Assembly: GCF_000003195.3 (NCBI RefSeq)
Contig: NC_012874.2
Location: 60,765,768 to 60,829,767, forward strand
Direction of reading: 5' to 3'
DNA from: Sorghum bicolor
Lineage: Eukaryota; Streptophyta; Magnoliopsida; Poales; Poaceae
DNA: 64,000 bases
Part shown: positions 3,500-45,096 of the stretch, one piece after another
Numbering within the stretch: position 1 is the stretch's first letter
Layout: every line of letters begins with the position of its first letter
Program-made: the position numbers and the translations under genes
The notes under the pieces: generated by a model
Database searches by the model: none
Told to the model about the DNA's origin: nothing
Seen by the model: only the letters and a program-made list of their open reading frames with translations

Positions 3500-5663
3500 A
3501 TCATCGTTGTTTGGAATAAGAGTTTCGTTGTCGTTGAAGTGAAACTCGCCGTTTGGATTGATCACTTGCTCGCGGAGAAATTCTGCTATCGTCTCTTGGA
3601 TAGCTTTGATTCGGTCTTTTTGCATGACCTTTTCCCTCAACCATTCCATCTTTAATTTGAAATAAATAAAAAAGGTATTAGTTATCTAAGTTAATCAATA
3701 TAATTCAGGAGATAATGAAAAGAGACATGTAACGTACTCTGAGCGTCTCTGTGGGTGTTTGATTGACTTGTGCCATCATGAATTTGCACACGTAATGTGC
3801 ACATAGGTTGTTCCCCCCTTCTTGTCTTAAACACCACTGTACGATATATATATATATAAAATATTCACGACCACGACAATAAGAAAGCTAAAAGTTAGCG
3901 AAAGTACTTTGCTAGCTAGTAAAACTTACTTGTGCATGAATTATGTTAAGCGGCGCTTTACATCCACTGAGATGTTCACGGTCAATAAATCTTTCTCAAA
4001 CCCTACACACAGCCACTGTGGATCGTCAACTAATAATTACAGAATCATATTATGATATTCTTCTAGCTGAGATCGACATTACGTACCTTTGAATAATGTT
4101 TACCATTTGTTGATAATTTTCTTGTGGTTTTCTCATTGAGTAAAAGATTATCAACCTGTTCTTGGGAATTTCAATGACCATGAGTATCCAGTGAAAGTTG
4201 TTTACACACACATATATATAGTCAGGCCTATATATATAACTATATAAAACTTGTCTCGAGTAATAATAAGTAAAATAAAATATGCATGCACTTAATAACT
4301 ATATAACTCACTCGAAGTTGAAGAGGAAGAGTATTTTTTGTTTTTCTTTTTGGTTCACAAAGAACCTCATAAGATTGGTGCAGACTTCTGTCTCATGAGA
4401 TGTTGTCCACATTGCCTGCAGAGCCTTGAAAACAATATAAGGGTCAACAAACCCAATACTATTGTCATTTCTGATTCTGAGCTCTCTCATTTGGTGCCTG
4501 CATATATACATACAAATCCTAAGTGTGTAAGGATTATATACATGCACTTAAAGAAGTTAGAAGTTTAATAAAAAGAAAGAAATACTTACAGACAAAAGCA
4601 GCTGACAAGAGATTTGTCGAGAGCGTCGAGGTGACATAATTAGTGCAATTCTTCGAACTGCACGTATATGAGGTTATCTCCACGGAAGTAGTGATGTTGT
4701 CTAATATGAACAGAAATCCAATTATCTCCCCTTTTAGATGCATTAATGCACCACTTGTTTATTGCAAACATTTGTGTACCGAGCTCATGTAAACGCTGAG
4801 GGTTTAATAGACTCCTGCCCGGTTCATAGCTTGCCCTCCATTGATCAACTACCTCAGCTTTTTCAAATGTTTGACATCCAATAATGGTGGCAATGTCTTC
4901 AATATTTAAACCACTCTGTCCAAAGTAATGCTTAAGCGAATCTAGCTCAGACAACGCTAAGCATTTCTTTGGCATCAAGTCGAGTCGAATTGATTTGGCA
5001 CAATCAAAGGGGGCACCGGTTTTGATACTTCTCCGAGCTGTGGGACCCCCTTTCCTACTCTCTTTTCTAGGCTGTGAAGACTTGACCAGAGACTGCTCAT
5101 AGTCCGAAAGTGCTGGCTTTTTCTGAGCTTCCCGCTGCTTCTTTTGCTGGTCCGCCACCTTCTTCCTCAGCTCCTCTGGCTTTACATAAAAGTACGGCTT
5201 TTCTGGGTTTAGCCGCTTTTTCCTTTCCTCCTTCAATTTATCAAAAAATTGTTTCACCTCAGCTTTGGATGCAGCAATTACCTCCTCTTCACTCTTTTCA
5301 TAAGGTAATTTCTCTGGTGTCTTAGCTCTCTTTGCTGAGGCAGCCTTCTTTGGAGGTGGGACCGATGACTTCGGTCGTTCTTGGGCGGACTACTTCTGAC
5401 TACCTCACTTTGGAGGCGAGGGGACCGACCGTGTACTCTTTGTAGAGAGCGGTGTAGGCGGTGGAGGTGGTGGGGCCGATCTTTTCGGTGTTGGAGAATG
5501 CGGTGGAGGAGTTGGAGACCTCGGTGGAGCAGGTGGAAACCGTGGTGGAGGCGGTGGCGGGGTCAGTGTGGCCGCCGCAGGTGTTGGAGGTGATCCAGCA
5601 TTGTCACCGCCCGCAGCACTATGATGCGCTGGGGAAAGAACTGGACTTAGGTTGGAAGAGTCC
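3500..5663 (-). pseudogene. Ulp1-like cysteine protease gene carried by the CACTA element
   Basis: Minus strand, several exons. The first exon starts after a TGCAG acceptor at 5663 and has a proline-rich stretch (5405-5640). A basic segment follows (KKLKEERKKRLNPEKP type, 5150-5257), then a globular part with LSELDSLKHYFGQ (about 4930-4960). Downstream exons give the protease core: HWILMVIEIPKN (near 4170-4190) ends at a CAAAG|GTACGT donor, and QEGGNNLCAHYVC (near 3800-3830) holds the expected catalytic Cys and Gln. The Asp of the triad should lie in IIFxSMRKP but is Tyr (about 4140). SUMO-protease-like ORFs are known cargo of plant CACTA elements. Frame changes near 5260-5400 and the missing Asp suggest it is inactive. 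Confidence 0.72.
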
Positions 5664-5767
5664 CTGCAAAGAAAACAATTACAAGTTTTGTGAGCAAACT
5701 TTTTTAAATTCAATACATAATAAATAATATAAGAAGTAAAATCACGCACAAACCTATGGTGAGGAAT

Positions 5768-8461
5768 TGTAATACCCGATTTTAAGGACAAAACCAGATA
5801 TGCACCATATGTGAGTCATAGAAGTCAAATCTCACATATAGCTACAAATAAGGGGTAATATCAAAAGACAATGCATAAATATATAACGTACTTAGTATAA
5901 AAGAGATAACCTGATAGCAAACAGCGGATAGACAACTCCAAACTTCGGGTATTAACTTCTCTCTACAGGATCCAACTGACTGGTTGATCATAAGCCTAAA
6001 CTTCTCCTGAGGTTTGGGGGAAATAGCAAGAGTGAGTCCATGTCGAACTCCACAAGTATAGCAACTAGATTGTACAGCTCCCACAATCTCATGATCAATG
6101 TGGCATAAATAATGTAGAGTATTAAACAATAAACAATGAGCATATTTAACACACAAGATTCATCACCCTTAATGTAGATGTCCCCAAAGCCGCTCCTGAC
6201 CGTGAGCTCGGCTAGTATACCAGTTTTACACTCTGCAGAGGTTGTACATCTTTACCCATGAGTCATGATTTACCCTTTCGCCCGAGGTGATCAGCCTCTT
6301 AACCCACTTCCAAGGAAGGTCGGCAGGGATCACTATGAAGCCTTTCAAAGGTTTCGTCTAACAAGTTAGGGCCATTAGATTCACTCGGCAGGCAGATATA
6401 GAGCCCCCCCTTCCATGGCACATAACCCGCAGCCTATACACACAGACAGAGGCCACACTATACCCAACGTGTCTAGCCATTCTTACGCCATTTAAGGTAG
6501 CCGCTAACAAGCTAGAAAAAGGTTCTCATACTGAGCTAAAGCCAGAGCCATTATAGACCTCATAGTTGCACTGTTATCCCGGGTGATCACGTACAGATAA
6601 ATCATCAAGTTGTTAAAAAGTCATTTTTATCATTTATTGCTTAACATTAATCTAGTCATAGGATCACGGGTCACAGAAATAAAATCCAAATGCTATACTT
6701 GCCTTAATCCAAATGCTCTTGCTGATCCCTTTTGGTTCTACTGGTCTTGCTCGTTGCCAAAGCCTTGATCCTGATCACCAAAAACTGCTCTCCGTCTAAA
6801 CTCGATCATCGATCACACACACAAACAACCGGAGACAAACATACACGAAGCAAACAAGGCAACAATTAGAACAATACACCAACCATATAAAAACAGTATG
6901 AAAAGCTTATAAAATGATTCTACGCATCGCTACGATCACACGGTCGTAAAGATCACGAGAATCGGAGTTAAAACGTAGAAGATATGAATTTTCTAAGATT
7001 TTCTTTAGAAAAACAATTAATTAATTAGGGTCACGAAAATAAAAAGTTTCAAACTGAGTAAACAATTTTACTAACATGTAGATCTTATGAAAACAAACCT
7101 AACGCAATTTGAATGGGTCAAATCGGAGTTAAAATGAACATTTTATGGCCAAAAGAAACTCAGTGGCAGTTTGGTAATTACTGAAAACGTATTTTGGAAT
7201 CAAGCCAGCAGACTTTATGTCTTCAAAGTCAGAAGGCGTATTTCAGTCTGTACGTATTGGACCGCGGGTTTTATATATAAAAATGCCAGGGGTTCTTTAA
7301 CAAAATTTCAGGCCAAAAGGGTATCGGCCGATTTGAGCCTTTGGATCTGAGATTGATGGCACAGATTAGATCAAAGGAGAGAGGAGGTGGCAGCCGCCGG
7401 TCGGAACAGGGACACGCGGTGGCGCCATGGCCGGATTTTGGCCGAACCTCGCCGGAGTTGATGAATTCGACGTTTTAGTGCACAATTCGAGAAACCAACA
7501 ACACAGGAAGCAAGAGGAGCTCACGGCGAACTCACCCACGGATGTTTTGGAGGCCGAGAGAGTTCGAGGACGACCCGCGTCATGCTTTGGCGGACGCGAA
7601 CCTCCTGTTCCACTTCGGCAGCGATTAGGGCTCCACGGAAACTGATAGGGAGCAAGGAAAAGGGCTCTGCGCCTTCGGAACCTCCACGCGGACCTCGGCG
7701 ATGAAACACAAGCCGCTGAGAAGCTCCGGTTGATGACAATCACGGCGGCGGCTTGGGGACAGGTTCGGCGGGATCTAAAACTCGCCAAACAAGGGTTAGA
7801 GAAGCTTCCCCGATGCAATAGATGGAAAAGGAAGTTGCGGTTGGCTCCATGGTGCTTAAAAAGGACTCAGGGAGATCGAATCCCTGAGAAATCAGGATTG
7901 GGCGCGGTCGATTTCCCTGGACGCCGTCCGACTCGAACCGGACCGAGGTAGGAGACGATGCGGTCGCTGCCATGCGGACCCGGGCTGTCAGCGATGGGAA
8001 GGGAGGGGAAGGCGCGCCTCCTGCTCGGCTTGGGCCGTAGGGAAGCGAAACAGGCCGCGCGCGTGGGCTATCTGAGCCGAGCTGGGGAGAATGGGGTGCA
8101 CTGGGCTGAGCGCGGGGTCTGGGTAGGGAAAAGGAATGGGCCGAGGGGGAAGAAGCTAGGCCTTCGGGCCAGAAAACAGAGGGGGAGCTTTTCCTTTTTC
8201 TTTTCTTTTGTTTTTTTCTCTTTTCTTTCAAGCCATTTTCAAATCCATTTAAAATATGTTTGAAATATTTTTGATCTTTGGTCAAACCACTCATGACAAT
8301 AAAAATGAATTTTCCAGCATGAATGCTCAACCATATTTCTAATCCTATGATAAATTTTATTTTGATGAAGAATATTATTTCCTGTGTTTCATGAGCACAA
8401 AAAAATCATAATTAAATCATTTTAGCTCTATTTCCAAGAAAACAATTTTTAGGGTGTTACA
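5768..8461. mobile_element. Solo LTR (~2.7 kb) inside the CACTA element
   Basis: It begins TGTAATACCC and ends GGGTGTTACA, giving TG...CA with a matching inverted terminus, and is flanked by the exact 5-bp duplication GGAAT (5763-5767 and 8462-8466). There is no internal retroelement coding sequence and no second LTR, so this is a solo LTR left by LTR-LTR recombination. The length and the TGTAAYACCC terminus fit a Gypsy chromovirus type such as Tekay/Del; that lineage assignment is inference. Bases 7380-8200 are strongly GC-rich and give several overlapping open frames on both strands. I do not regard these as genes. Confidence 0.85.
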
Positions 8462-30756: not shown

Positions 30757-30866
30757 AGCTTGACTTTGTCATCAACAACTTGATAGACGACCTCGCGCGG
30801 CGAGGGTTCTAACATCGTCAAGTTGCCGACCTTCTCACGATAGTAGATCAAAATACCAAACGACTT
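30757..30866. repeat. ~110-bp direct repeat, left copy
   Basis: It contains CTCGCGCGGCGAGGGTTCT and CCTTCTCACGATAGTAGATC. A diverged copy at 31181-31288 lies on the other side of the 41-bp minisatellite. Confidence 0.75.
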
Positions 30867-30918
30867 TCGCCATACACTCTCCGCCACCGCCATAGAAACA
30901 ATAGAGCAGGCCAAAATG

Positions 30919-31145
30919 ACATCTCTGCCGCCGTAGGAATAATAGAGTAGGCCAAAACGACCCCTCCGCCGCCGTCGTGATAACAGAGTAGGCCAAAACG
31001 ACCCCTCCGCCGCCGTCGTAATAACAGAGTAGGCCAAAACGACCCCTCCGCCGCCGTCGTAATAACAGAGTAGGCCAAAACGACCCCTCCGCCGCCGTTG
31101 TAATAACAGAGTAGGCCAAAACGACCCCTCCGCCGCCGTTGTGAT
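30919..31145. repeat. 41-bp minisatellite, ~5.5 units
   Basis: The unit CCCCTCCGCCGCCGTCGTAATAACAGAGTAGGCCAAAACGA (shown here as a description of its start CCCCTCCGCC and end GGCCAAAACGA) begins at 30961, 31002, 31043, 31084 and 31125. Spacing is exactly 41 bp. An older diverged unit lies at 30919-30960. Only one or two substitutions separate the later units. Because 41 is not a multiple of three, the array is open in more than one minus-strand frame, which creates spurious ORFs. Confidence 0.92.
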
Positions 31146-31180
31146 GAGCTAAAATTTCCGCCTTGCGTGTCCCTTTTTAT

Positions 31181-31578: not shown

Positions 31579-31927
31579 TGCGTCCAAAGGATCAGGGTCC
31601 CTCCCTGTTGGCTGCGGCTGATTTATATAGGGAGCAGGCCAGGCGTCAACGTAACTCTCTTGGCCAAGCAAAACAAAACTATGCATCTTTAATCTAGATA
31701 GACTAGATTCCTATCATATCTCCAAGTGCGTATCTACCCAGGACTTCTTTTGGTAGTTAGCTTCTCTTATTTGGACTATTACTTCTTTCCAGTAAAGAGC
31801 CAAAACTCATTGAGTATGCACGCAGCCGGGAAATACGCACATATCCGTAGTATCTCGGCCAGCAGGCATGTACTTGAGTTACGTACTGAACCATAATCCT
31901 TGATCTCCAAAACCTTCCTCTCTCTCA
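31579..31927. repeat. ~348-bp direct duplication, left copy
   Basis: It runs from TGCGTCCAAAGGATCAGG to CCTTCCTCTCTCTCA. It is nearly identical to 44750-45096; I count three substitutions (around 31866-31880) and one CT indel. It contains a TATA-like TTTATATAGG near 31621. No coding potential is evident. Confidence 0.93.
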
Positions 31928-32526: not shown

Positions 32527-32531
32527 CATTT

Positions 32532-33228
32532 TGTTGACACCGTTTTTGGGCACGTGTCCATGATCGGTAAAGTGTGGATTGGCAGGATGAGATGGTGGTG
32601 TTTGATCTGCAGGGTGAGTTGCCGATGGAGGTGATTGCCGATGGAAGGACGGTTCAACAGGACTAAGTCCATAGGTGACGATGTGTCTATGCCGATAGCT
32701 ACGACAAGGGAGTCTGCCGATGATATGGGAGAAGAACCTGGAAGTTGCCGATCGGTTTGTGAAGGAGTTTCAGTTTGTCACGGGGGGATAGCTTTATGTT
32801 TTCCTTAGTCATTTAAATCGTTTTGTATACGGATTCTGTGTAATTTGGAATTTGAGTTCTAGTCGTGTCTAGTTGTAGCTCTTTGAGCAGGGTATAAATG
32901 TAGACCCTAGGGCTTTGTAATGAAGGGATCTATCAATCAATCAAACACAAGTTTTTACTCATATTCCAGCATCTACTTTTTCGACGACTTTGTCATACTT
33001 TTTCCTTTTCATTACGAGTTCTTAGGAATTCGTCGACTTAAGCTCGGCGTGTTCTCAAGTTCCGCGTGAGTACCTCTTAGCCGTGACATCCGGGCGCATC
33101 GCTGTTGTCAGGACTAAAGTATTCAAGTTACCATCTTTGCCGATAGTAAGGTCAAATCGGCTGGCACGCCTTAACGTTTGAATCGGGTATTAGCCCTTTG
33201 TGTTTGCAGATCAGCTTTTGCACCAACA
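32532..33228 (+). repeat. 5' LTR of the Tat Gypsy
   Basis: It begins TGTTGACACCG and ends TTGCACCAACA. A TATA-like TATAAAT sits at 32893-32899. It carries seven GCCGAT/ATCGGC hexamers, five of them within 32621-32752. Confidence 0.95.
32893..32899 (+). promoter_or_regulatory. TATA box of the 5' Gypsy LTR
   Basis: TATAAAT stands in a GGTATAAATGTAGACC context about 360 bp into the LTR; the 3' LTR has the same motif at 44085-44091. The assignment is by position only. Confidence 0.55.
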
Positions 33229-33274
33229 CATCTTTTGGCACGCTCGGTGGGACAGATTCAAGATCGAGATCAAC

Positions 33275-36188
33275 ATGTCGACTTCTGACTTTGATTAAGA
33301 AAACGTTATCCCCGTGACAGAAGCCAACCTCAAGGATGAGCAGAAGCAAGCTATTGCTAAAGCCATGGAAGATTTATAAGCAGCAATGCCTGAGGTCCTT
33401 CAGCATGAACAGGAGCGGCGAAGTGATCTAGAAGGATGCAGTGCCGGCACCACGGCAGGTTACTTTCGAAGCCAATCCTGGCAAACTTCAAGAGATGGTT
33501 GACAGCGCTATCAACCGTGCTTTGATCAACCAAGCTGAGGTGCTGTCTAATACTGTTTTCAATGCCGTGGCAAGAACTTTCAAGGAAGGACAGTTGCCAC
33601 CAGATTACGTGGGCCCTACTTATCACCAGCCGGGATCACCAGTGGTTACAGCTCCATCGGCTGCCGCAGCCGCTGTGGGAGCACAGACTGTCGTTCCTCC
33701 AAGTACATTGGGAGCCACCAATGCACAATCTGCGCCGATGACAACCAATCCGCCAACTTCAGATGGGCAGATTAAAATCACTACAGATTTGTTGGCATCG
33801 GCAATGTCGGGACTGACTCTTCCTCCTAACTGGTGGGGTTATGGCATGCCTCCAGAGTTAACGCCGGGTACATCGCAGACGACCGATATGAGAGGCAAGA
33901 CTCCTATGGCATCGGCACCTCCCAATATGCCGATGAACCAGAGTCCCCAGTATACTACAACTACTACTGCAAGACCTTACACTGGGAATTCTCAAGCTCC
34001 AATATTCCAGATGCCTAACGCATCGGCAGACTCAATGCTGATGCAACAGAGGTCTATGGCTCAATCAGGGTATGTCAATTCAATGATGATGCCCAATTAT
34101 CAGTCATCGGCAGGGCCTATGCCGATGAACGCTAATAATGGATGGCTTGGGCAGCAAGTCTTCCCACAAACGCCCCAACAGAATCACCAGGCTGCAGGGT
34201 TTCAGCAAGGACAGATCTTTCCCGGGTTCCAGAATCAGGGGATCCCTAACCAGCCGATGAATCTCGAGCAGCAAGTCGGCAGACAGCAAATTGGCGGGCA
34301 ACAGCTTGGTGGTCCACAGATTGGGGGCCGGATGATTAATCCAATGTTTCATACAGAACGTGCGCCGCACGGACGCGTGGAAGCTTACCAGCAGGTGCCA
34401 GATCCGCAACCACCCCATCGGCAAGATGCCGATGCTTATTGGGCCGATAAGATTGCTGAAGTGATGAGAGACCAATTTGGGATAAGACCCAAAGTCAACA
34501 CTTACTCTTATCGGACACCGTATCCTCCCGCGTATGATTTGATCCCGCTTCCACATCGGTACAAGGTACCGGATTTTACTAAGTTTTCTAGGCAGGATGA
34601 CACGTCAACTATGGAGCACGTCAACAGATTTATCATTCAATGCGGTGAGGCTGGTAACAGGGACGAGTTAAGGGTTCGTTTGTTCTCATCGTCATTGTCT
34701 GGATCGGCTTTTACCTGGTTTATATCCCTACCTCCCAACTCAGTGATTACTTGGGCCGATCTGGAGAAGCAATTCCACAAGTACTTCTTTTTTGGGGTCC
34801 ATGAGAAGAAGATCACCGATTTGATCAAATTAAGGCAACGCAATGATGAATCGGTTGAGAGTTTTGTGCAGAGGATACGGGAGGTCAAGAACAAGTGCTA
34901 TAGTCTGGTTCTGGATGATCGGCAGCTAGCCGATTTGGCTTTCCAGGGTTTGTTGCCACACATCAGGGACAAGTACGCCTCTCAGGAGTTTGAAAGCTTA
35001 AGTCATTTGGTGCAGAGGATTTCTGATCAAGACGTCAAGCCTTTTGAGCCCAAGAGGGCATGGAACAAAAAGGTATCTTTCGTTGATGAAGCAACAAGCT
35101 CAGATTCTGATGAGGAACCAGTCATCGGCTTGGCAGAGTGGGTAAAAAATAAGAAGCCGATGTCTTGTACTTTTGGACATAAAGAACCAGAGAAGTTCGC
35201 GTTTGACACCGCTAAGGCCGATAGGATATTTGACTTTCTACTTCAGGAAGGTCAGATCAAGCTGTCTCCTAATCACGTGATCCCATCGGCTGAAGAGTTA
35301 AAGAAGATGAAATATTGCAAGTGGCACAATGCAACTTCTCACGGCACCAATGAGTGCAAGGTTTTCAGACAGCAGCTGCAATCGGCTATAGAATCTAGGA
35401 GAATCAAATTTGACAGTCCCAAGACCCAGAAGCCGATGAAGATCGATCAACATCCTTTCCCCACAAACATGTTGGATGCTAAGGGAAAGGCTAAGGTCTT
35501 AACATCGGAAGCAGCCGAAAGGAGTGCATCGGTGGATCCTCAGCATCAGGTCACTACTGCCGATGCAAGAGGAAGAGGCTTGGTCCAGGAAGGAACCAGC
35601 TCAGGGAGGCCTCCCCGATCTGGTATCGTTATAACCCACAGAAGGCCTCGGGAGAATTGGCAACAACGTGAAGATCGGTACCGGCGCTAGCAAGAGGATT
35701 ATCGTTGGGAAGAGGAAAGACGCCGGCAAGAATGGAATCGGCACAAGGATCACTGGAATTGCCCGTTCTTCATTCATTGTTGGGAGGAGAATATTAAGCT
35801 TTCCACTGTCAGAGACTGCCCTGAGTGCAATGGTTATGATCGGTATGATAGGTCCGATCGGCGCTACCACGGTGATAATCGGCGATCTAATGGGCTGATT
35901 AGAGGAAGAGCATCCGTTCACGATTGGCTGGGGGGCAGGCTCAGCGTGCACGACAGGCTTGGTGATCGTGTCCAATATTTTCCCAGGAACCAGGAAGAGC
36001 TCGAAGAGATGGCTAATGCACGAGTTCCCGGCGAGTTCATATTTTGCAGGGACGCCAATACGTATCGGATGGAGTCAGGGGAAAATCATCGCCCAGCAGC
36101 AAGGCAGAAGCCGCTTCCTCCATGGTGTCCAGAGGGGTTGACCAAGACACAGAAAAGGAGGTTGCAGCGCGAAAGGCGAGAAGGCTAA
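33275..36188 (+). pseudogene. Gypsy gag (Tat type), broken
   Basis: A likely start ATG (MSTSDFD) is at 33275, but stops follow within 40 codons and a frame change near 33420. From 33441 the frame is open to a TAG at 35688, then continues in the same frame to 36188. The first half is low complexity (Gln, Pro, Met, Asn). The retrotransposon gag domain lies near 34560-35030 (YKVPDFTKFSRQDD, FTWFISLPPNSVITW, LEKQFHKYFF, LRQRNDESVESFVQRIR). After the TAG a zinc-binding stretch with HCWEE and CPEC (about 35770-35830) completes gag, followed by a basic end. The protease frame overlaps from 36044. Confidence 0.9.
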
Positions 36189-39100
36189 GCAAGGGCGAGA
36201 GCTCTGGTCAGTCTGGGGATCAGCAGCAATCAGATCCCAAGGGGGAAGGTCCATCGGCAGATGTCAACATGGTCTTTATGTTGCCGATGGAGTTCCTTGC
36301 GCCATCCAGTGATGATGAGCTAGAATTTTCCGACCAGATAGCTCAATTGACTCTGGATCCGATGACAGCTATTTTCGAGAAGCCTGCCGATGATGAAAGG
36401 CAACATCTCAAGGCTCTGTTTGTCAAAGGAAGGGTTGATGGACAGCCGATGACCAAGACTCTAATTGATGGTGGAGCTGCTATCAATATCATGCCGTATG
36501 CAGTGTATTGGAAGCTTGGGAAAGGGGATCAGGATTTGACCAAGACCGATATGATGCTTAAAGACTTTGAAGGGAATGTGTCTCCGGTCAAGGGGGCAAT
36601 ATGTGTAGAATTGACCATCGGCAGCAAGACCTTGCCGACAACCTTCTTCGTGATCAGTGGAAAGGGTGCTTACAACCTGCTGTTGGGGAGAGATTGGATT
36701 CATGCCAATTGTTGCATCCCATCTACAATGCACCAATGCTTGGTCCAGTGGGTAGGTGACAAGAATGAAATTGTCCCAGGGGATTCTTCTTATGTCATCG
36801 CATCGGCAGAGGCGGATACCTATGAAAGGACTAGGTGTATTTCCAGAGAAGTTTGGGAAAAGGATTTTCTCAAGGTTGCCGATTACGAGATTCCACCGAT
36901 CCAAGCAGTCGGTTCTGATGAAAGTTTTTAATGGATAGGTTCGCCGATGAGGGAAAATTAGGCCAGGGATTCACGTCGGCCGATGATCTAGTAGAAGTAG
37001 ATATAGGTAGTGGTGATAAGCCTAGACCCACTTTTATTAGTGCCAAGTTAGATCATGAGTGTAAGCAACAGTTGACTGATTTGTTAAAGGAATATAAAGA
37101 TTGCTTTGCTTGGGATTATACTGAGATGCCTGGTTTAGACCGATCAATTGTTGAACATCGGTTGCCTATCAAGTCTGGATTTCGGCCACATCAGCAGCCA
37201 GCTCGCCGATGTAATCCTAATATTCTTCCTGACATCAAGGCCGAAATAACCAAACTTATTGAAGCCAAATTTATTCGGCAGTGTCGGTATGCCGAGTGGA
37301 TTTCCAATGTTGTTCCGGTTTACAAGAAGAACGGGAAGCTTCGGGTCTGCATTGATTTTAGGAATCTTAATAAGGCTACACCGATGGATGGATACCCAAT
37401 GCCAGTTGCCGATCTGCTGGTTGACGCTGCGGCTGGGCATCGGATTATTAGCTTTATGGATGGCAATGCGGGATACAATCAGATATTCATGGCTGAAGAA
37501 GATATTCCAAAAACCGCGTTCAGGTGCCCTGGTCATGTTGGATTGTTTGAATAGATAGTTATGACCTTTGGCTTAAAGAATGCTGGTGCTACTTATCAAA
37601 GGGCCATGAATTTTATATTTCATGAGTTCATCGGCAAGCTGGTGGAGATTTATATTGATGATGTGGTGGTTAAATCTGAAGACTTTGCAAAGCATCTTAC
37701 TGATTTACGAAAGGTGTTGGAATGCACAAGGAAGCATGGTTTGAAAATAAATCCCAATAAGTGTGCATTTGGTGTATCGGCAGGGCAATTTCTTGGTTTC
37801 ATGGTGCACCAGAGGGGAATTGAAATCAGTCGAAGATCTATTGATGCTATCAATAAGATAGTAGCCCCTACCAACAAGACCGAGCTCCAATCCTTGATCG
37901 GCAAGGTAAATTTTATCAGAAGGTACATATCTAACTTGTCTGGTAAAATTCATGCTTTCATCCCTCTTCTTAAGTTAAAGGCCGATCAAGAGTTCGTTTG
38001 GGGGAAGGAACAACAGTTGGCTCTGGAAGAAATCAAGAATTATTTAGTAAATCCTCCAGTTCTAATTCCACCTCAGCAAGGGAAGCCCTTCAGATTGTAT
38101 TTGTCTACCGATGGGATGGTCATCGGCTCGGCTTTAATTCAAGAATTTGAAGGGAAGGAGCATGTAATTTATTATTTAAGCAGGAGGTTGATTGATGCTG
38201 AAACCAGGTATTCGGCTACTGAGAAACTGTGCTTGTGCCTATATTTTTCTTGTATCAAGCTAAGGCACTACTTGTTATCGGCCGAATGCACTGTTATTTG
38301 CAAAGATGATGTGGTCCGGTACATGCTATCCATGCCGATTATGAGTGGCAGGATCGGTAAGTGGATTTTGGCGCTGTCGGAGTTCGACCTGCGTTATGAA
38401 TCGACTAAGGCAGTTAAAGGGCAGGTTATGGCCGATTTTGTGACTCAACATTGCGGTACAGTGGAGGCTTTGGGAATTGTGCCTTGGACGCTCTTCTTTG
38501 ATGGATCTACATGTGACCGAGGGGCAGGAATCGGCATAGTATTAGTTTCCCCTCTGGGAAGGAAGTATGAGTTTTCCTTGCCGATTGTTGCCACGACAAC
38601 GAATAATCAGGCTGAGTATCAAGCTTTAATAAGGGGATTAGAGTTGTTGAGAGAAGTTCATGCTGATGCTGTTGAGGTCTTCGGGGATTCTATGTTGGTT
38701 ATAAATCAATTAGCTGGAAGCTATGAATGCCGAAGTGAAGGTCTCATAACTTATTACGAGCGGAGCATGCAATTATTGAAGGAATTCAATGATTTCCGAT
38801 TAGAGTATGTTCCTCGATTGCATAATGAAGAGGCCAATCGGTTGGCTCAGCATGCCTCGGGATATCAGCCTATAATTGATGCAATATCGGCAATTGGTGC
38901 CGATGATTGGACAAAAGAAATCGTTGATTATTTGAAAGATCCATCCGAGAAAGTTGAGAGGCGAATTCGGTTTCAAGCCACCAAATATGTGCTCCTCGAA
39001 GATGAATTGTACTACCGAACTATTGATGGAGTTCTTCTTCGATGCTTGGGTGATGATGAGGCTAGAAGTTTGATGGGAGAGATCCATGAAGGAGTATGTG

Positions 39101-40164
39101 GAGCACATCAGTCGGCTTTCAAGATGAAGTGGATGATTAGGAGGAATGGATATTATTGGCCGACCATACTTGAGGATTGCTTTAAATATTTCAAAGGGTG
39201 TCAAGGATGTCAAAAGTTTGGCAATATTCAAAGAGCACCCGCATCGGCCATGAATCCTATTATCAAACCTTGGTCGTTCCGGGGATGGGCTATTGATCTG
39301 ATCAGCCAAATTTTTCCACCATCTAGCAAGGGGCATAAGTTTATTCTGGTCGCCACCGATTATTTCACTAAATGGGTTGAAGCTATTCCTTTGAAGAAGG
39401 TCACATCGGCCAATATGATTGATTTTGTGAAGGAACACATTATTTACCGATTTGGGATTCCTCAGACAATTACTACCGATCAAGGCACTATGTTCACATC
39501 AGGAGAGTTTGATGAATTCGCAATCGGAATGGGGATTAAAGTGTTGAATTCCTCTCCTTACTATGCTCAGGCTAATGGGCAAGCCGAGGCGTCTAACAAA
39601 GGAATCATTAAGCTTATTAAACGGAAGATTGAAGCAAATCCTAGAAGGTGGCACACATTGTTGAATGAAGCCTTATGGTCCTATCGGATGGCTTGTCATG
39701 GATCAACTAAGGTCTCACCTTACCAGTTGGTGTATGGACATGATGCAGTTTTGCCTTGGGAAATTAAAGCTGGATCTAGGCGATTATCTTTTCAAGATCA
39801 GTTGGCTGCCGATGATTATGCTACTTTGATGACAGACGAGTTGGATGATTTAGCAGGACATCGGCTAAGGGCTTTGATGAGTATAGAAGAGAATAAGAAA
39901 AGAGTTGCCAGATGGTACGATAAGAAGGTGAAGGCTAAGGAATTTGCCGATGGAGACTTAGTATGGAAATTAATCTTACCGATCGGGACTAAAAGTTCAA
40001 AGTTTGGAAAATGGTCTCTCAATTGGGAAGGTCCCTATCGGATAAGTCGACCGGCTCCTGGTAACGCCTACATTTTAGAAACTCTCGAAGGAGTTGAATT
40101 TCCCAGAGCATTAAATGGCAAATATTTAAAGAAGTATTACCCCAGCATATGGGTCGATGCATAA
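36044..40164 (+). pseudogene. Gypsy pol: protease, RT, RNase H, second RNase H, integrase
   Basis: Protease: LIDGGAAINIMP (near 36465, the Asp-Gly-Gly variant of DSG usual in Tat) and LLLGRDWIH. A one-base shift at about 36930 leads to the RT: KKNGKLRVCIDFRNLN, SFMDGNAGYNQI, then a TAG at 37552 where the family has Trp, then MTFGLKNAGATYQR and catalytic YIDDVVVKS (near 37660). The RT-linked RNase H follows (LYLSTDGMVIGSAL), then a second RNase H (LFFDGSTCDRGAGIGIVL, NNQAEYQALIRGL, VFGDSMLVINQL, 38500-38830). Integrase has an HHCC finger (HEGVCGAHQSAFK, CQGCQKFG), a DDE core (IDLISQ, TTDQGTMFTSGEF, YYAQANGQAEASNKG) and a C-terminal domain. It ends with TAA at 40162-40164. Confidence 0.95.
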
Positions 40165-40282
40165 AGATTTAAATGCCGATAACACTCCTATCGGCTGGAT
40201 TAAAATGTATCTGAGACCGGACTTGATGTTTCAAAAGTTGCCTGAAGAGTGAGGGGAGGCAGGTGTGTTGCCGATGAAGAGC

Positions 40283-43200
40283 TCACATGCTTAGCAGCGC
40301 TTGGATCGCCGATATGGCGCGCAGTCGGATTTGGTTGGCTGCTTCTATTTCTCTGACATCGTCATCGGCAGAACCTTCTATCCTCTTCAGCTTCTTCTTC
40401 AACTGCAAAGCTTTGCGACCATGGGCGTTTCGTTCCTGTTCAAGGAGCTTGATAGTCTCTGGCAGTTGACTTTCTTCCTGTTGGGCTTGGGATAAGGCAT
40501 CCTCCACCTGCTTGAGCTCTGCCAACAGGGCTTCCCGTTTTGCCGATAGGTCCGAGATCTTTTGCTGCAGTGTGTCTCCTGGAGACTTCAAGGTACCGAT
40601 GTTCTTGTGCTTCTCATCGGTCAGGAGCTTCTCCTTCATCATTTCCTCAAAAAGCCGGATCTGAGCGGCTCTATCGGCAAGGCACCGGGCGGCCCTCTAG
40701 TACTGCAGCTGACGACTTTCCAGATGTGCGGCCTGGAAAAGGACTTCTTCGGCATCGGCAGGAATCTGGCCTCTGAGCGTCTTGAACAGAACCTTGGTTG
40801 GGTCAGAGTCATCGACCAGTTGTGCCGTATCCTGATGGAGGAAAGCCGACAGTTCTACCAGCTTGGCCCTGATCTCTGCCGATACGATCCCGACTGCCCG
40901 GGAGGAACTCGTTTCCTCGCCTTCGTCCTCGGAGATATCAATGGCGAAGGAGAATAAGCTGTCAGGAGAATCCTGTTCCTGAAAAGGAAAACAAAGTGAG
41001 TTATTCTGTGGTCGGAACATCGGCGAATAATATTAATGGAGATCGAATAACTTACTTGCTTCAAGGCGATCTCTTGACTTTGACCAGAAGATGCCGATGG
41101 AGCCACTGGTTGATCGACCGGAGTTGCCGATGGAACTACGTCAGCTGAAAATTGATATAAATGGTTATGAGATGGAAAAATAGGTTCATCGGCACTAACT
41201 TTATAAATGTGTTACCTTGAGGAAGGGCAATACTTGTCTGAACGGAGGAAACCACCGATGCTATAATGGAACCTGCTGGATCGGCAGTTGATTCATGAAC
41301 ATCAGCAGATGAGTCTTCTGGCTGAGGTACTTCTTGTTGAGGTTCTTCCACCTATGGTGCTTCTTGCATTGGAGGGGGAGATAGTGCTTGCTGAGTCTCT
41401 GCTTCTGGAGGAGAGGGAGAGGATTCCATCGGAATGGGAGATACCGGAGGAGGAGGAGGAGTCGCCACTTTCTGGCGCTTTGCTTGTGCCCTGGTACTCT
41501 TGGCGCCCTTTCTCTTTTGCTGGCTGGACTGGGGGGCATCGGCACCTTGGCTTTTGGTTCTTGCTGATGCACTGGTTTGCTGTAACAAAAGAGAGGGATT
41601 TGTGAATATAAATGCAGCCGATGTAAAAGTAAGATCGGTACAAATGAAGAGATTTGACAGTTACCTTAAAAGCTTGTGCTAGAGTGGAAGCAGCTACCGA
41701 TGGTGGTGTCTGAGTTTTCCTGGTGGTAACTTTCTTGAGGCGTATACCTCGATGCACGATGGCAGCCAGGGTAGGGGCGTTGTGGCCGATTGAAGAGATT
41801 GGACCTGATGCAAACAGATCAATCGGCTTGCCACTTCTGCTGACCGATGGAGGGGTGTCGTCAACCTGCAAAACGGTACAAAAGTAAATCACCGATAGAG
41901 ACAAAATTGGGAGGATTGAAACAGCGGTTTGAAGACACTTACAGTATCGTTGGGGACTTCATACTCAGGATCGATCATGCCGCGGTACGTGAGGGCCGAT
42001 TTGCAGAACAGATGCTCCTTCCATTCTGCCCACCACTGCTTGTACGCCTGAGTGATGAAGGCGGCTGGAACCCACTCTAATAAATCTACGTCTGTATCGG
42101 CACTCGATGACAGCTGGGCTACTCGAATCCATTCAAGAAGGCTGGTGATGGTTTCTCTAGGCTTTATCACATCGGCATAGCAGAGTGCAATCGGCAGCTG
42201 GCCGAAAGCTAACTGACGAGCTAGTGCCGATGGGTTATAAAATTCATAAGTCTGGGGGGAGATTTTCCCACTACCAAAGAAGTTCACCGGTATGGCTCTG
42301 GGAGTCACCAATGCCATCATCACTTCGTTGTCCTTGTCAAGAGCGTCGTTGAACGGGTTGAAGACCAGGGGAAGCATACTGTCTGGGTCATCGTAGGCCA
42401 ACCATGCTCGCTCATCTCTGGCCAAACCCTCATACAAGGTTTGGAAGAATCGGCTGACCTGATCTGGATTACCCCTGAACCAGGCAGAACTATGACAGCT
42501 TCACCAAAGTTCAGGGGAGCATGTGTTGCCGATTCCTCTTCATCCAACACATGGTTTTCGGCTGTGTCTCTTGGAAAACGTTGTGTGAACAGGTCAAAAT
42601 CAAGGTGCTTGTGCAGATGCAGATTGAGCCACATATTGATGAACCACCAAGGTCCTCCTAAGTTGCCGATAGATTGGCCGAGCAAGAGTTTCCTAGTCAC
42701 TTGGTGAAGGAGGTGGTAGGCTGCACCAAGCAGGTATCGGCCGAGGGGAAATCGGCCACCATTGGCCAGATTTTCAGCTGCCGCTAAGTGGACCGAGGTC
42801 GGTCCTGCCGATCGCCCGCAAAACACGAACTTATCTAGCCACATGTTCAGAAAGCAGGTCTGTTCTTTTATGTTAACGAGGCCTGTTCATTTATATTTTT
42901 GGATGTACCCTGACCAACCGCCGATGGAGCGAGTTTCTACCTTGGCACTGGGCTTGGTGTCGAAAAAATGGGTGCTATCGGCAGAGGATACATCTAGGCC
43001 GGTAAGCATAGCCACATCGGCAAGAGTAGGGGAAGCAGGGCCGTGGCCAAAGACAAAAGCGTTGAGCGTGTCTGACCAGAAGTATGATGCAGCTATCAGC
43101 AGTGACTCATTTCTATGCATATCGGCAATGGACAACCTAATGCATTGATCTAGCTTTCTTTCACCCCACTGGACTTCATTTGAGTTGCTGACCCTCAAAA

Positions 43201-43550
43201 ACCAATCTGTCCATCCTACAGTAGGGCTGGGCCAAGAACGGAAGGTATCCTTCCACAGATCCAAAGAAAAGTTCTCGGCCCTAAAAGGAATCCTGTTTGT
43301 TTCCGCGTTAATGAGATCGGTTGGATCTGGATCCCCTAACGGGCCAAGGCATTGGAGATGTGGTTGATCGGTGGGGATAACAATTTTGTTGGACAATTTC
43401 TAATGGTTTTGAAGGTAAAAGAAAAAAGGGGGAAACAAAGGAAGAAAAGAAAATATTCAGTATAATAGGTTGCGGATGAACAGAGATGCGAGAAAAGTAC
43501 AGGGGATGGAATGAAGAACTGACCTCAGGGATGACGAAGTTGATGGCCAT
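40283..43550 (-). pseudogene. Antisense plant mobile domain (PMD) gene inside the Gypsy element
   Basis: Minus strand, six exons that join in phase at canonical sites. Exon 1 runs from the ATG at 43550 (MAINFVIPE) to a GAG|GTCAGT donor at 43524. Exon 2 (41943-43399) carries the PMD: VGWTDWFLRVS, LIAASYFWSDTLNAFVFGHG, LADVAMLTGLDV, GWSGYIQKY, FLNMWLDKFVFCG, GGPWWFINMWLNLHL. The next exons are 41665-41865, 41216-41579 (Pro/Ser-rich with a KRKGAKSTRAQAKRQK nuclear-signal-like stretch) and about 41056-41141. The last is 40283-40981, ending in a long coiled coil. Breaks: TGA at about 42887, a frame shift near 42475, TAG at about 41353 and TAG at 40697. PMD proteins such as Arabidopsis MAIN and MAIL1 act in gene silencing and genome stability, and PMD-C types are known in plant transposable elements. 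The gene is convergent with pol (119 bp between stops). Confidence 0.85.
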
Positions 43551-43667
43551 CTTGTCACGAAGAAGATGATCGAGAGCTTCGGAGATGGTGGGGAAGGACT
43601 TTGGCAGAGATCTTGGGGCTATTGAACAGCGCCGCCGCCAGGAGAGAAAAGATGGAGGTGTGGAATG

Positions 43668-43746
43668 ATGTGTTGACACCGTTTTTGGGCATTAATGATT
43701 TCATACTCCGAAATTGGGGGGCATGTGTTGACACCGTTTTTGGGCA
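43668..43746. repeat. 24-bp duplication of the LTR start upstream of the 3' LTR
   Basis: ATGTGTTGACACCGTTTTTG and the next four bases occur at 43668-43691 and again at 43723-43746, 55 bp apart. The second copy spans the start of the 3' LTR. The 31 bp between hold the G-rich tract. Confidence 0.9.
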
Positions 43747-44420
43747 CGTGTCCATGATCGGTAAAGTGTGGATCGGCAGGATGAGATGGTGGTGTTTGAT
43801 CTGCAGGGTGAGTTGCCGATGGAGGTGATTGCCGATGGAAGGACGGTTGAACATGACTAAGTCCATAGGTGACGATGTGTCTATGCCGATAGCTACGACA
43901 AGGGAGTCTGCCGATGATATGGGAGAAGAACCTGGAAGTTGCCGATCGGTTTGTGAAGGAGTTTCAGTTTGTCAAGGGGGGATAGCTTTATGTTTTCCTT
44001 AGTCATTTAAATCGTTTTGTATACGGATTCTGTAATTTGGAATTTGAGTTCTAGTCGTGTCTAGTTGTAGCTCTTTGAGCAGGGTATAAATGTAGACCCT
44101 AGGGCTTTGTAATGAAGGGATCTATCAATCAATCAAACACAAGTTTTTACCCATATTCCAGCATCTACTTTTTCGACGACTTCGTCATACTTTTTCCTTT
44201 TCATTACGAGTTCTTAGGAATTCGTCGACTTAAGCTCGGCGTGTTTTCAAGTTCCGCGTGAGTACCTCTTAGCCGTGACATCCGGGCGCATCGCTATTGT
44301 CAGGACTAAAGTATTCAAGTTACCACCTTTGCCGATAGTAAGGTCAAATCGGCTGGCACGCCTTAACGTTTGAATCAGGTATTAGCCCTTTGTGTTTGCA
44401 GATCAGCTTTTGCACCAACA
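43726..44420 (+). repeat. 3' LTR of the Tat Gypsy
   Basis: It matches 32532-33228 with roughly eleven substitutions and a 2-bp deletion by eye (about 1.6%). It contains the same seven GCCGAT/ATCGGC hexamers and the TATA motif. TSD CATTT follows. Confidence 0.95.
44085..44091 (+). promoter_or_regulatory. TATA box of the 3' Gypsy LTR
   Basis: TATAAAT corresponds to 32893-32899 in the 5' LTR. Confidence 0.5.
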
Positions 44421-44425
44421 CATTT

Positions 44426-44749: not shown

Positions 44750-45096
44750 TGCGTCCAAAGGATCAGGGTCCCTCCCTGTTGGCTGCGGCTGATTTATATA
44801 GGGAGCAGGCCAGGCGTCAACGTAACTCTCTTGGCCAAGCAAAACAAAACTATGCATCTTTAATCTAGATAGACTAGATTCCTATCATATCTCCAAGTGC
44901 GTATCTACCCAGGACTTCTTTTGGTAGTTAGCTTCTCTTATTTGGACTATTACTTCTTTCCAGTAAAGAGCCAAAACTCATTGAGTATGCACGCAGCCGG
45001 GAAATACGCACATATCCGTAGTATCTCGGCCAGCAGGCGTGTACTCGAGTCACGTACTGAACCATAATCCTTGATCTCCAAAACCTTCCTCTCTCA
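44750..45096. repeat. ~348-bp direct duplication, right copy
   Basis: It starts TGCGTCC immediately after the Helitron-like CTAG end and runs to CCTTCCTCTCTCA. It is the near-identical partner of 31579-31927. Confidence 0.93.

Follow-up and report, generated by a model that had tools for sequence, protein, structure and literature searches.

Here we report that a single hexamer, GCCGAT (ATCGGC on the opposite strand), saturates a complete Tat-type Gypsy element of Sorghum bicolor and is conserved, at the DNA level, between the lineages of this element. As in the VANC/VANDAL system, the short motif is enriched in its own family: the window, that is, the whole 64,000-nucleotide stretch analysed, contains 122 sites, 102 within the element (54 GCCGAT and 48 ATCGGC) and 20 elsewhere. 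The explanation that we consider probable, albeit far from assured, is VANC-like self-recognition in an LTR retrotransposon, whereby the element's own PMD protein would read the selected word and probably counteract the silencing of its own copies.

The density of the word, approximately one site per 115 bp over the whole retrotransposon, bears out the saturation claimed in an earlier note on this DNA, and dinucleotide-preserving shuffles do not yield similar counts, the mean being 4.7 sites (SD 2.2) and the maximum 12 (n=200). When one LTR is counted, the word is the top hexamer (z 38.9, compared with a maximum of 5.1 over all hexamers across 40 shuffles), and the most frequent 8-mer, TGCCGATG/CATCGGCA, occurs 34 times against 0.4. 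The rough counts of the earlier note hold up well: we find 35 sites at 33.6-37.0 kb (gag to protease; about 35 claimed), 21 at 37.0-40.2 kb (pol; about 20) and 31 at 40.2-43.2 kb (antisense PMD gene; about 31), and the five sites placed within 32621-32752 start within 32621-32747. The figure of about 7 per LTR is right for the 5' LTR, but the 3' LTR has 8, the extra one being an ATCGGC at 43772. The sites indeed occur in all three reading frames and in both orientations. The contention that codon choice does not explain them stands for four of the seven ORFs, which surpass every synonymous-codon shuffle (500 per ORF), whereas the other three, with 4 sites each, are at or one below the shuffle maximum (5, 4 and 4); the observed counts are 23, 7, 4, 17, 4, 6 and 4, and the shuffle means, in the same order, 3.8, 1.5, 1.5, 2.9, 1.1, 1.1 and 1.3. 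These three ORFs notwithstanding, the shuffles reject chance, composition and codon choice as the general cause. The spacing of the sites is slightly more even than random (CV 0.85; lower in 6.8% of 5000 simulations). A period of about 185 bp has an R of 0.24 in the window, but random placement equals this value at some period within 140-230 bp in 22.9% of 1000 trials. In L039 the peak is at 186 bp (2.8% of placements), nothing is seen in the other five pieces tested, and we claim no period.

The element is complete, with LTRs and a target-site duplication on both sides (Table 1), and its two LTRs diverge by about 1.6%. We assign it to the Tat lineage because Pfam places an additional RNase H (RVT_3, residues 313-432) between RT_RNaseH (174-275) and Integrase_H2C2 (500-553), the position described as the Tat signature (PMC6317226). 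The gag-to-integrase genes occupy the plus strand, and pieces of a PMD domain (PF10536) lie on the minus strand between pol and the 3' LTR; the curated cut-off is passed by the family copy L085 (53 bits), whereas the window's own pieces (30 and 22 bits) stay below it. That the family is large is evident from the 3,096 exact hits of the LTR pair TGCCGATG-N8-TGCCGATG in the genome (709 Mb), compared with 0 for the reversed control, and TTGCCGATG occurs 48,122 times genome-wide against 3,904, family membership being assigned for only part of these sites.

Table 1. Features of the word-bearing element, in window coordinates
Feature	Positions	Strand	Remarks
Target-site duplication CATTT, left	32527..32531	.	
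5' LTR	32532..33228	+	7 word sites
gag ORF	33441..35690	+	PF03732; 23 word sites
Protease ORF	36044..36931	+	PF13975, 27.5 bits, slightly below cut-off; 7 word sites
ORF with start of RT	36931..37554	+	PF00078 below cut-off; 4 word sites
RT, RNase H, second RNase H (RVT_3), integrase ORF	37561..40164	+	17 word sites
Antisense-gene region	40269..43675	-	77% identity to the same region of family copy L085
Antisense PMD coding region	41937..43120	-	matches relative P0034 residues 1-395; two pieces in different frames
PMD-bearing ORFs	42887-43396 and 42320-42844	-	Pfam PMD, 30 and 22 bits, below cut-off 34.9
3' LTR	43726..44420	+	8 word sites
Target-site duplication CATTT, right	44421..44425	.	
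GCCGAT/ATCGGC array	32532..44420	.	102 dispersed sites, both orientations

Comparison of lineages reveals pronounced conservation of the word sites in place. Across six pol pieces (the window, L039, L043, L044, L051 and L052; 85-97% identity), the word is the most conserved class in all 30 ordered pairs, with 67-100% of its sites identical, compared with 24-73% of other NNCGNN hexamers and 35-85% of non-CpG hexamers. A word-blind ranking puts GCCGAT at the top of 734 words (75/98; nominal p 3e-10, the pairs not being independent), and in the antisense region it likewise comes first in three pairs (124, 95 and 68 words). The earlier note proposed to test for turnover of motif positions faster than that of the flanks; the opposite is found, the motif being far more conserved than its own flanks. 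Specifically, the fraction of sites kept, against that of flank hexamers, is 80/100 vs 0.53 in pol; 22/31 vs 0.45 in gag from the window to L086 and 22/24 vs 0.44 from L086 to the window; 11/14 vs 0.39 in gag-protease to L039, with one site set aside for poor local alignment; 28/31 vs 0.22 and, in reverse, 26/33 vs 0.23 in the antisense region, with 6 sites set aside for the same reason from L085 to the window; 92/112 vs 0.31 in the LTR against 16 family copies; and 4/7 vs 0.15 (1/1 in reverse) against the LTR of the distant L040. In a single pair of antisense regions, 28/31 word sites are kept compared with 19/109 other NNCGNN hexamers (Fisher 8e-14), and among five lineages of this region (67-84% identity) the word is the highest in 20/20 ordered pairs, with 48-90% kept against 1-40% of other NNCGNN hexamers. 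Of the 59 distinct positions in these lineages, 6 are common to all five, 10 to four, 7 to three and 18 to two, and 18 are found in one.

The conservation is that of DNA. Where the amino acid is conserved in pol, third bases are unchanged in 139/155 cases inside the word vs 2553/3616 outside (totals of five comparisons with the window as the common reference), and at CpG third bases the figures are 69/74 vs 106/178; amino acid conservation itself is equal (155/165 inside, 3616/3939 outside). Among single pairs, the difference is significant for L051, L052 and L044 (p 0.001-0.005) and weakest for L039 (23/30 vs 469/701); in gag, from the window to L039, it is 13/13 vs 108/159. This synonymous conservation rejects protein-level constraint. 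Forward and reverse sites are both kept (42/52 and 38/48 in pol, 14/14 and 14/17 in the antisense region, 80/96 and 12/16 in the LTR), the uneven case being gag towards L086 (forward 8/15 vs reverse 14/16; 8/8 vs 14/16 in the opposite direction). Given that both orientations are used, the evidence points to the word acting as double-stranded DNA. The fate of the word after insertion can be read from the two LTRs of one copy, which differ only by post-insertion mutations. In 20 LTR pairs, with the two sites used for finding the copies left out, 91/108 word sites are identical, compared with 557/655 other NNCGNN hexamers (Fisher p 0.88). Resident copies thus give the word no protection, and it decays like any CpG hexamer. 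Because this decay is ordinary, the word is, on the evidence of these comparisons, under selection in the replicating lineage rather than maintained by mutation bias. Moreover, the retention between lineages in the nearer comparisons, approximately 0.8-0.9, is close to that from post-insertion decay alone, which suggests that many sites are nearly fixed in the replicating lineage.

So which protein could read the word? Among the three candidates of the earlier note, Gag, integrase and the PMD protein, the last now appears to be the best. The predicted structure of PMD yielded a match to VANC21 bound to its target DNA, and full-length relatives are predicted to carry, after this VANC21-like fold, a linker containing basic stretches and then a tail resembling a coiled coil. 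The comparison with VANC made in that note thereby gains a measure of independent support; none of the sequence comparisons run recovers the resemblance. In profile comparison, PMD is matched by 50/50 members of A2, and DUF1985, the domain criterion of VANC/VANDAL, is absent among the 20 families listed for A2 at E values up to 10. Judging by the predicted fold, we infer that the PMD protein is the likely binder of the word. A PMD alone does not bring GCCGAT: the 30 other PMD loci found with the Pfam profile (L009-L038), which are of different kinds, contain 0-4 sites apiece, so that PMD in general is rejected as the cause of the word.

A sister Tat family (L045, L094 and L095; 67-69% identical to the element at the nucleotide level in the parts aligned by BLAST) carries a different form of the word. 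In L095, pol is followed by a PMD gene on the sense strand (5067-6761), one ORF of which scores 30.4 bits for PF10536, below cut-off. This gene has 28-45% identity to the PMD of the element's family (tblastn), whereas pol of the sister family is less diverged (51-69% amino acid identity); the pieces of L094 and L045 yielded no PMD. The word of L095 (8.2 kb) is shifted but related, with AGCCGA present 17 times against 1.4, TAGCCGAT 8 against 0.1 and GCCGAA 13 against 1.35; that of L094 is weaker (AGCCGA 8 against 1.6, GCCGAT 9 against 1.4) and is not the top hexamer. When L094 and L095 are compared, 10/17 and 10/15 word sites are kept, compared with 0.18 and 0.15 for other CpG and 0.27 for other hexamers; nothing comparable is seen with the old copy L045 (1/13 from L095 and 2/9 from L094; 1/5 and 2/2 from L045). 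Across the two families, GCCGA is kept at 8/15 sites from L095 to the window (0.17 other CpG, 0.15 other 5-mers) and at 7/37 from the window to L095 (0.06 and 0.17), and hence there seems to have been an ancestral core array common to both, with many sites gained subsequently in the element's family or lost in the sister family. That word and PMD diverged together, and pol less, is suggestive only, this being one comparison.

An unlikely alternative retains the word as a selected site but assigns its reading to another protein of the element, integrase or Gag, which would act on the cDNA inside the particle or within the pre-integration complex, such that the element's own DNA would be preferred for protection, import or integration. 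Such a function on the whole cDNA would predict the similar density of the word over the whole element, and conservation restricted to the replicating lineage fits as well; however, it is the PMD that has a predicted fold resembling that of a DNA reader, and the shift of the word in the sister family accompanies the greater divergence of PMD, not that of pol.

Enrichment of the core over 47.4 kb of sequence from the family is 19.1-fold, and A is tolerated at position 1 (8.0-fold), with any other single change at or below 2.4-fold; outside the core, the information is mainly in a T before and a G after, along with a weak pyrimidine preference two before, which makes the extended word (T)RCCGAT(G). 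This variant profile looks like that of a site bound by a protein rather than that of a copied block. Together with the conservation at synonymous sites, in the LTR and in the antisense region, this binding-site-like logo upholds the proposal of selection for sequence-specific recognition, and such recognition of the word can be considered well supported. The conserved sites would amount to a ready-made binding-site map, and the evolutionary variant table predicts the bases that a purified protein should tolerate. The tolerated A recalls the core of the DRE element, RCCGAC, which differs from RCCGAT in the last base, and a host transcription factor or chromatin protein, for example, of the AP2/DREB type, might bind the word to the benefit of the element. 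We consider this doubtful because GCCGAC and ACCGAC are hardly enriched (6 against 2.8 and 3 against 2.4, compared with 94 against 4.8 for GCCGAT), which rejects a DRE/CRT (DREB/CBF) target array, and because site density is no lower in gag and the antisense gene than in the LTR, rather than promoter-centred. Mutational bias, composition, codon choice or CpG protection as the source of both density and conservation is highly improbable: the word does contain a CpG, the mutability of which depends on methylation, but the dinucleotide and codon shuffles and the synonymous and flank controls all speak against this, and the LTR pairs refute CpG protection or mutation bias as the main cause. Retroelement RNAs carry packaging signals, yet a conserved RNA-level signal (packaging, splicing or an RNA-binding protein) is scarcely credible for a non-palindromic word conserved in both orientations in pol, the antisense region and the LTR.

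Under the self-recognition hypothesis, (T)RCCGAT(G) would be a double-stranded DNA recognition site scattered through the whole retrotransposon and kept by selection because the element's own DNA has to be recognised over its full length by a sequence-specific protein. This reader would most likely be the antisense-encoded PMD protein, which would coat the DNA of its own element via the dispersed sites and, by analogy with VANC21, counteract host silencing on its own copies, so that de-repression would be restricted to the family; anti-silencing as the outcome is suggested by this analogy. If true, sequence-specific anti-silencing would extend from DNA transposons to LTR retrotransposons, in a very large family.

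Sequence-specific anti-silencing has been described for the Arabidopsis VANDAL DNA transposons, through VANC21 and VANC6; localisation of VANC21 depends on motif density, and its effect extends across the entire element (PMC5735166, PMC10398659). The VANC21 targets are reported to form arrays of one orientation, chiefly within non-coding tandem repeats (PMC5735166). The likeness lies in a transposon-encoded protein coupled with a short word enriched in its own family and, judging by the predicted match, perhaps also in the fold. Unlike VANDAL, a Mutator-like DNA transposon, the carrier here is an LTR retrotransposon with LTRs, gag, RT and integrase; unlike VANC, its protein matches Pfam PMD and not DUF1985; and, in contrast to the targets as described for VANC21, the Sorghum word is dispersed in both orientations, also in gag, pol and the antisense gene, its sites being conserved in place over deep divergence. 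In bacteria, DNA uptake sequences (DUS of Neisseria, USS of Haemophilus) are short words linked to a protein for self-recognition; they are dispersed over genes and non-coding DNA alike and occur in either orientation. In its dispersal, orientations and presence inside genes, the word of the element is closer to these than to the VANC targets; uptake sequences, however, cover whole genomes and serve natural transformation, and no homology is claimed.

Among Tat Gypsy elements with extra ORFs, a survey reported PMD for 57% of the Ogre elements and Transposase_28 for 23% of the Retand elements (PMC6317226). The present element resembles these in the dual RNase H between RT and integrase and in the extra PMD ORF between pol and the 3' LTR; the accessible part of that survey makes no mention of a saturating conserved word (PMC6317226). 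The host PMD proteins MAIN and MAIL1 have been associated with the 'DOWN' promoter motif, its recognition by a complex being proposed as one hypothesis (PMC7156037, PMC5418596); in the available text, Nicolau et al. leave open direct reading of a DNA motif by host PMD proteins (PMC7156037), and Ikeda et al. speculate on anti-silencing by MULE-captured PMDs (PMC5418596). Here, too, PMD proteins go with a DNA motif tied to function, although, unlike the element's PMD, MAIN and MAIL1 are described as host genes supporting silencing and gene expression. Our results link these observations with those on VANC21, binding by PMD being what we infer. If it holds, a function would be suggested for PMD, a widespread domain described as of unknown function, along with a direct test of target choice by MAIN and MAIL1.

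A broader and more tentative possibility, which we consider slightly less likely than not, is that PMD is a VANC-type sequence-specific DNA-binding fold, that grass Tat families each write their own word over the full extent of their DNA, genes included, read by PMD or by another extra-ORF protein, such as Transposase_28, to lift their own silencing, and that MAIN and MAIL1 are related readers. Other Gypsy pieces (L046-L050) have 0-2 GCCGAT each; L050 and L046 have mild words of their own (z 8.1 and 6.3), and no word stood out in conservation between the two. In a Gypsy family with a Transposase_28 ORF (L089, 82.4 bits), in the pieces of which no PMD was found, CGACCA occurs 43 times against 7.5 in 12.6 kb, and 34/72 CGACCA sites are kept in six ordered pairs (L047-L049), compared with 0.18-0.37 of other CpG hexamers.

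In the alignment of the PMD-bearing region between pol and the 3' LTR, which covers five lineages, the word positions at columns 2237 and 2241 overlap and alternate by lineage: GCCGAT is found in two lineages, while the remaining three have ATCGGC four columns further, a pattern that looks like the in-place replacement of one word site by the other. The sister Tat family, too, carries a PMD gene, together with a shifted form of the word (see the table); there, however, PMD lies in the sense orientation, whereas in the window element it is opposite.

An ORF antisense to pol is also present in a separate Gypsy family (L047-L049, L089 and L090; G000:C1), in this case a Transposase_28 ORF, and this family has a mild word of its own, CGACCA/TGGTCG (43 versus 7.5 expected in 12.6 kb), which is conserved in part among the copies. 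Furthermore, 13 TTGCCGATG sites cluster at G000:C1:461097-474340, where the matches listed include neither the LTR-pair pattern nor the RT pattern; perhaps this is a divergent or non-autonomous relative that shares the word. The CACCGGAC-type words that are dense in L032 (G000:C5:1198958-1202494) and L002 could possibly be subterminal repeats of a different transposon (CACCGG counts, 17 versus 1.7 and 16 versus 1.2, respectively).

DUF1985-like ORFs are present in the genome (L096, L097), with six matches at 28-30 bits, below the Pfam cut-off; a search of the protein collection with one of these ORFs gave five homologs. As for the surroundings of the window element, the direct repeats on its two sides are perhaps the termini of another element that received its insertion.

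Coordinates of the sister-family locus and of the repeats around the window element
Feature	Location	Remarks
Sister Tat family with PMD gene and shifted word	L095 5067-7949 (G000:C4)	PMD sense
Direct repeats, 300 bp, 99% identity	window 31579-31878 and 44750-45049	flank the window element on both sides, ~13.2 kb apart
Repeat array, 41-bp spacing	window 30840-31167	immediately upstream of the window element
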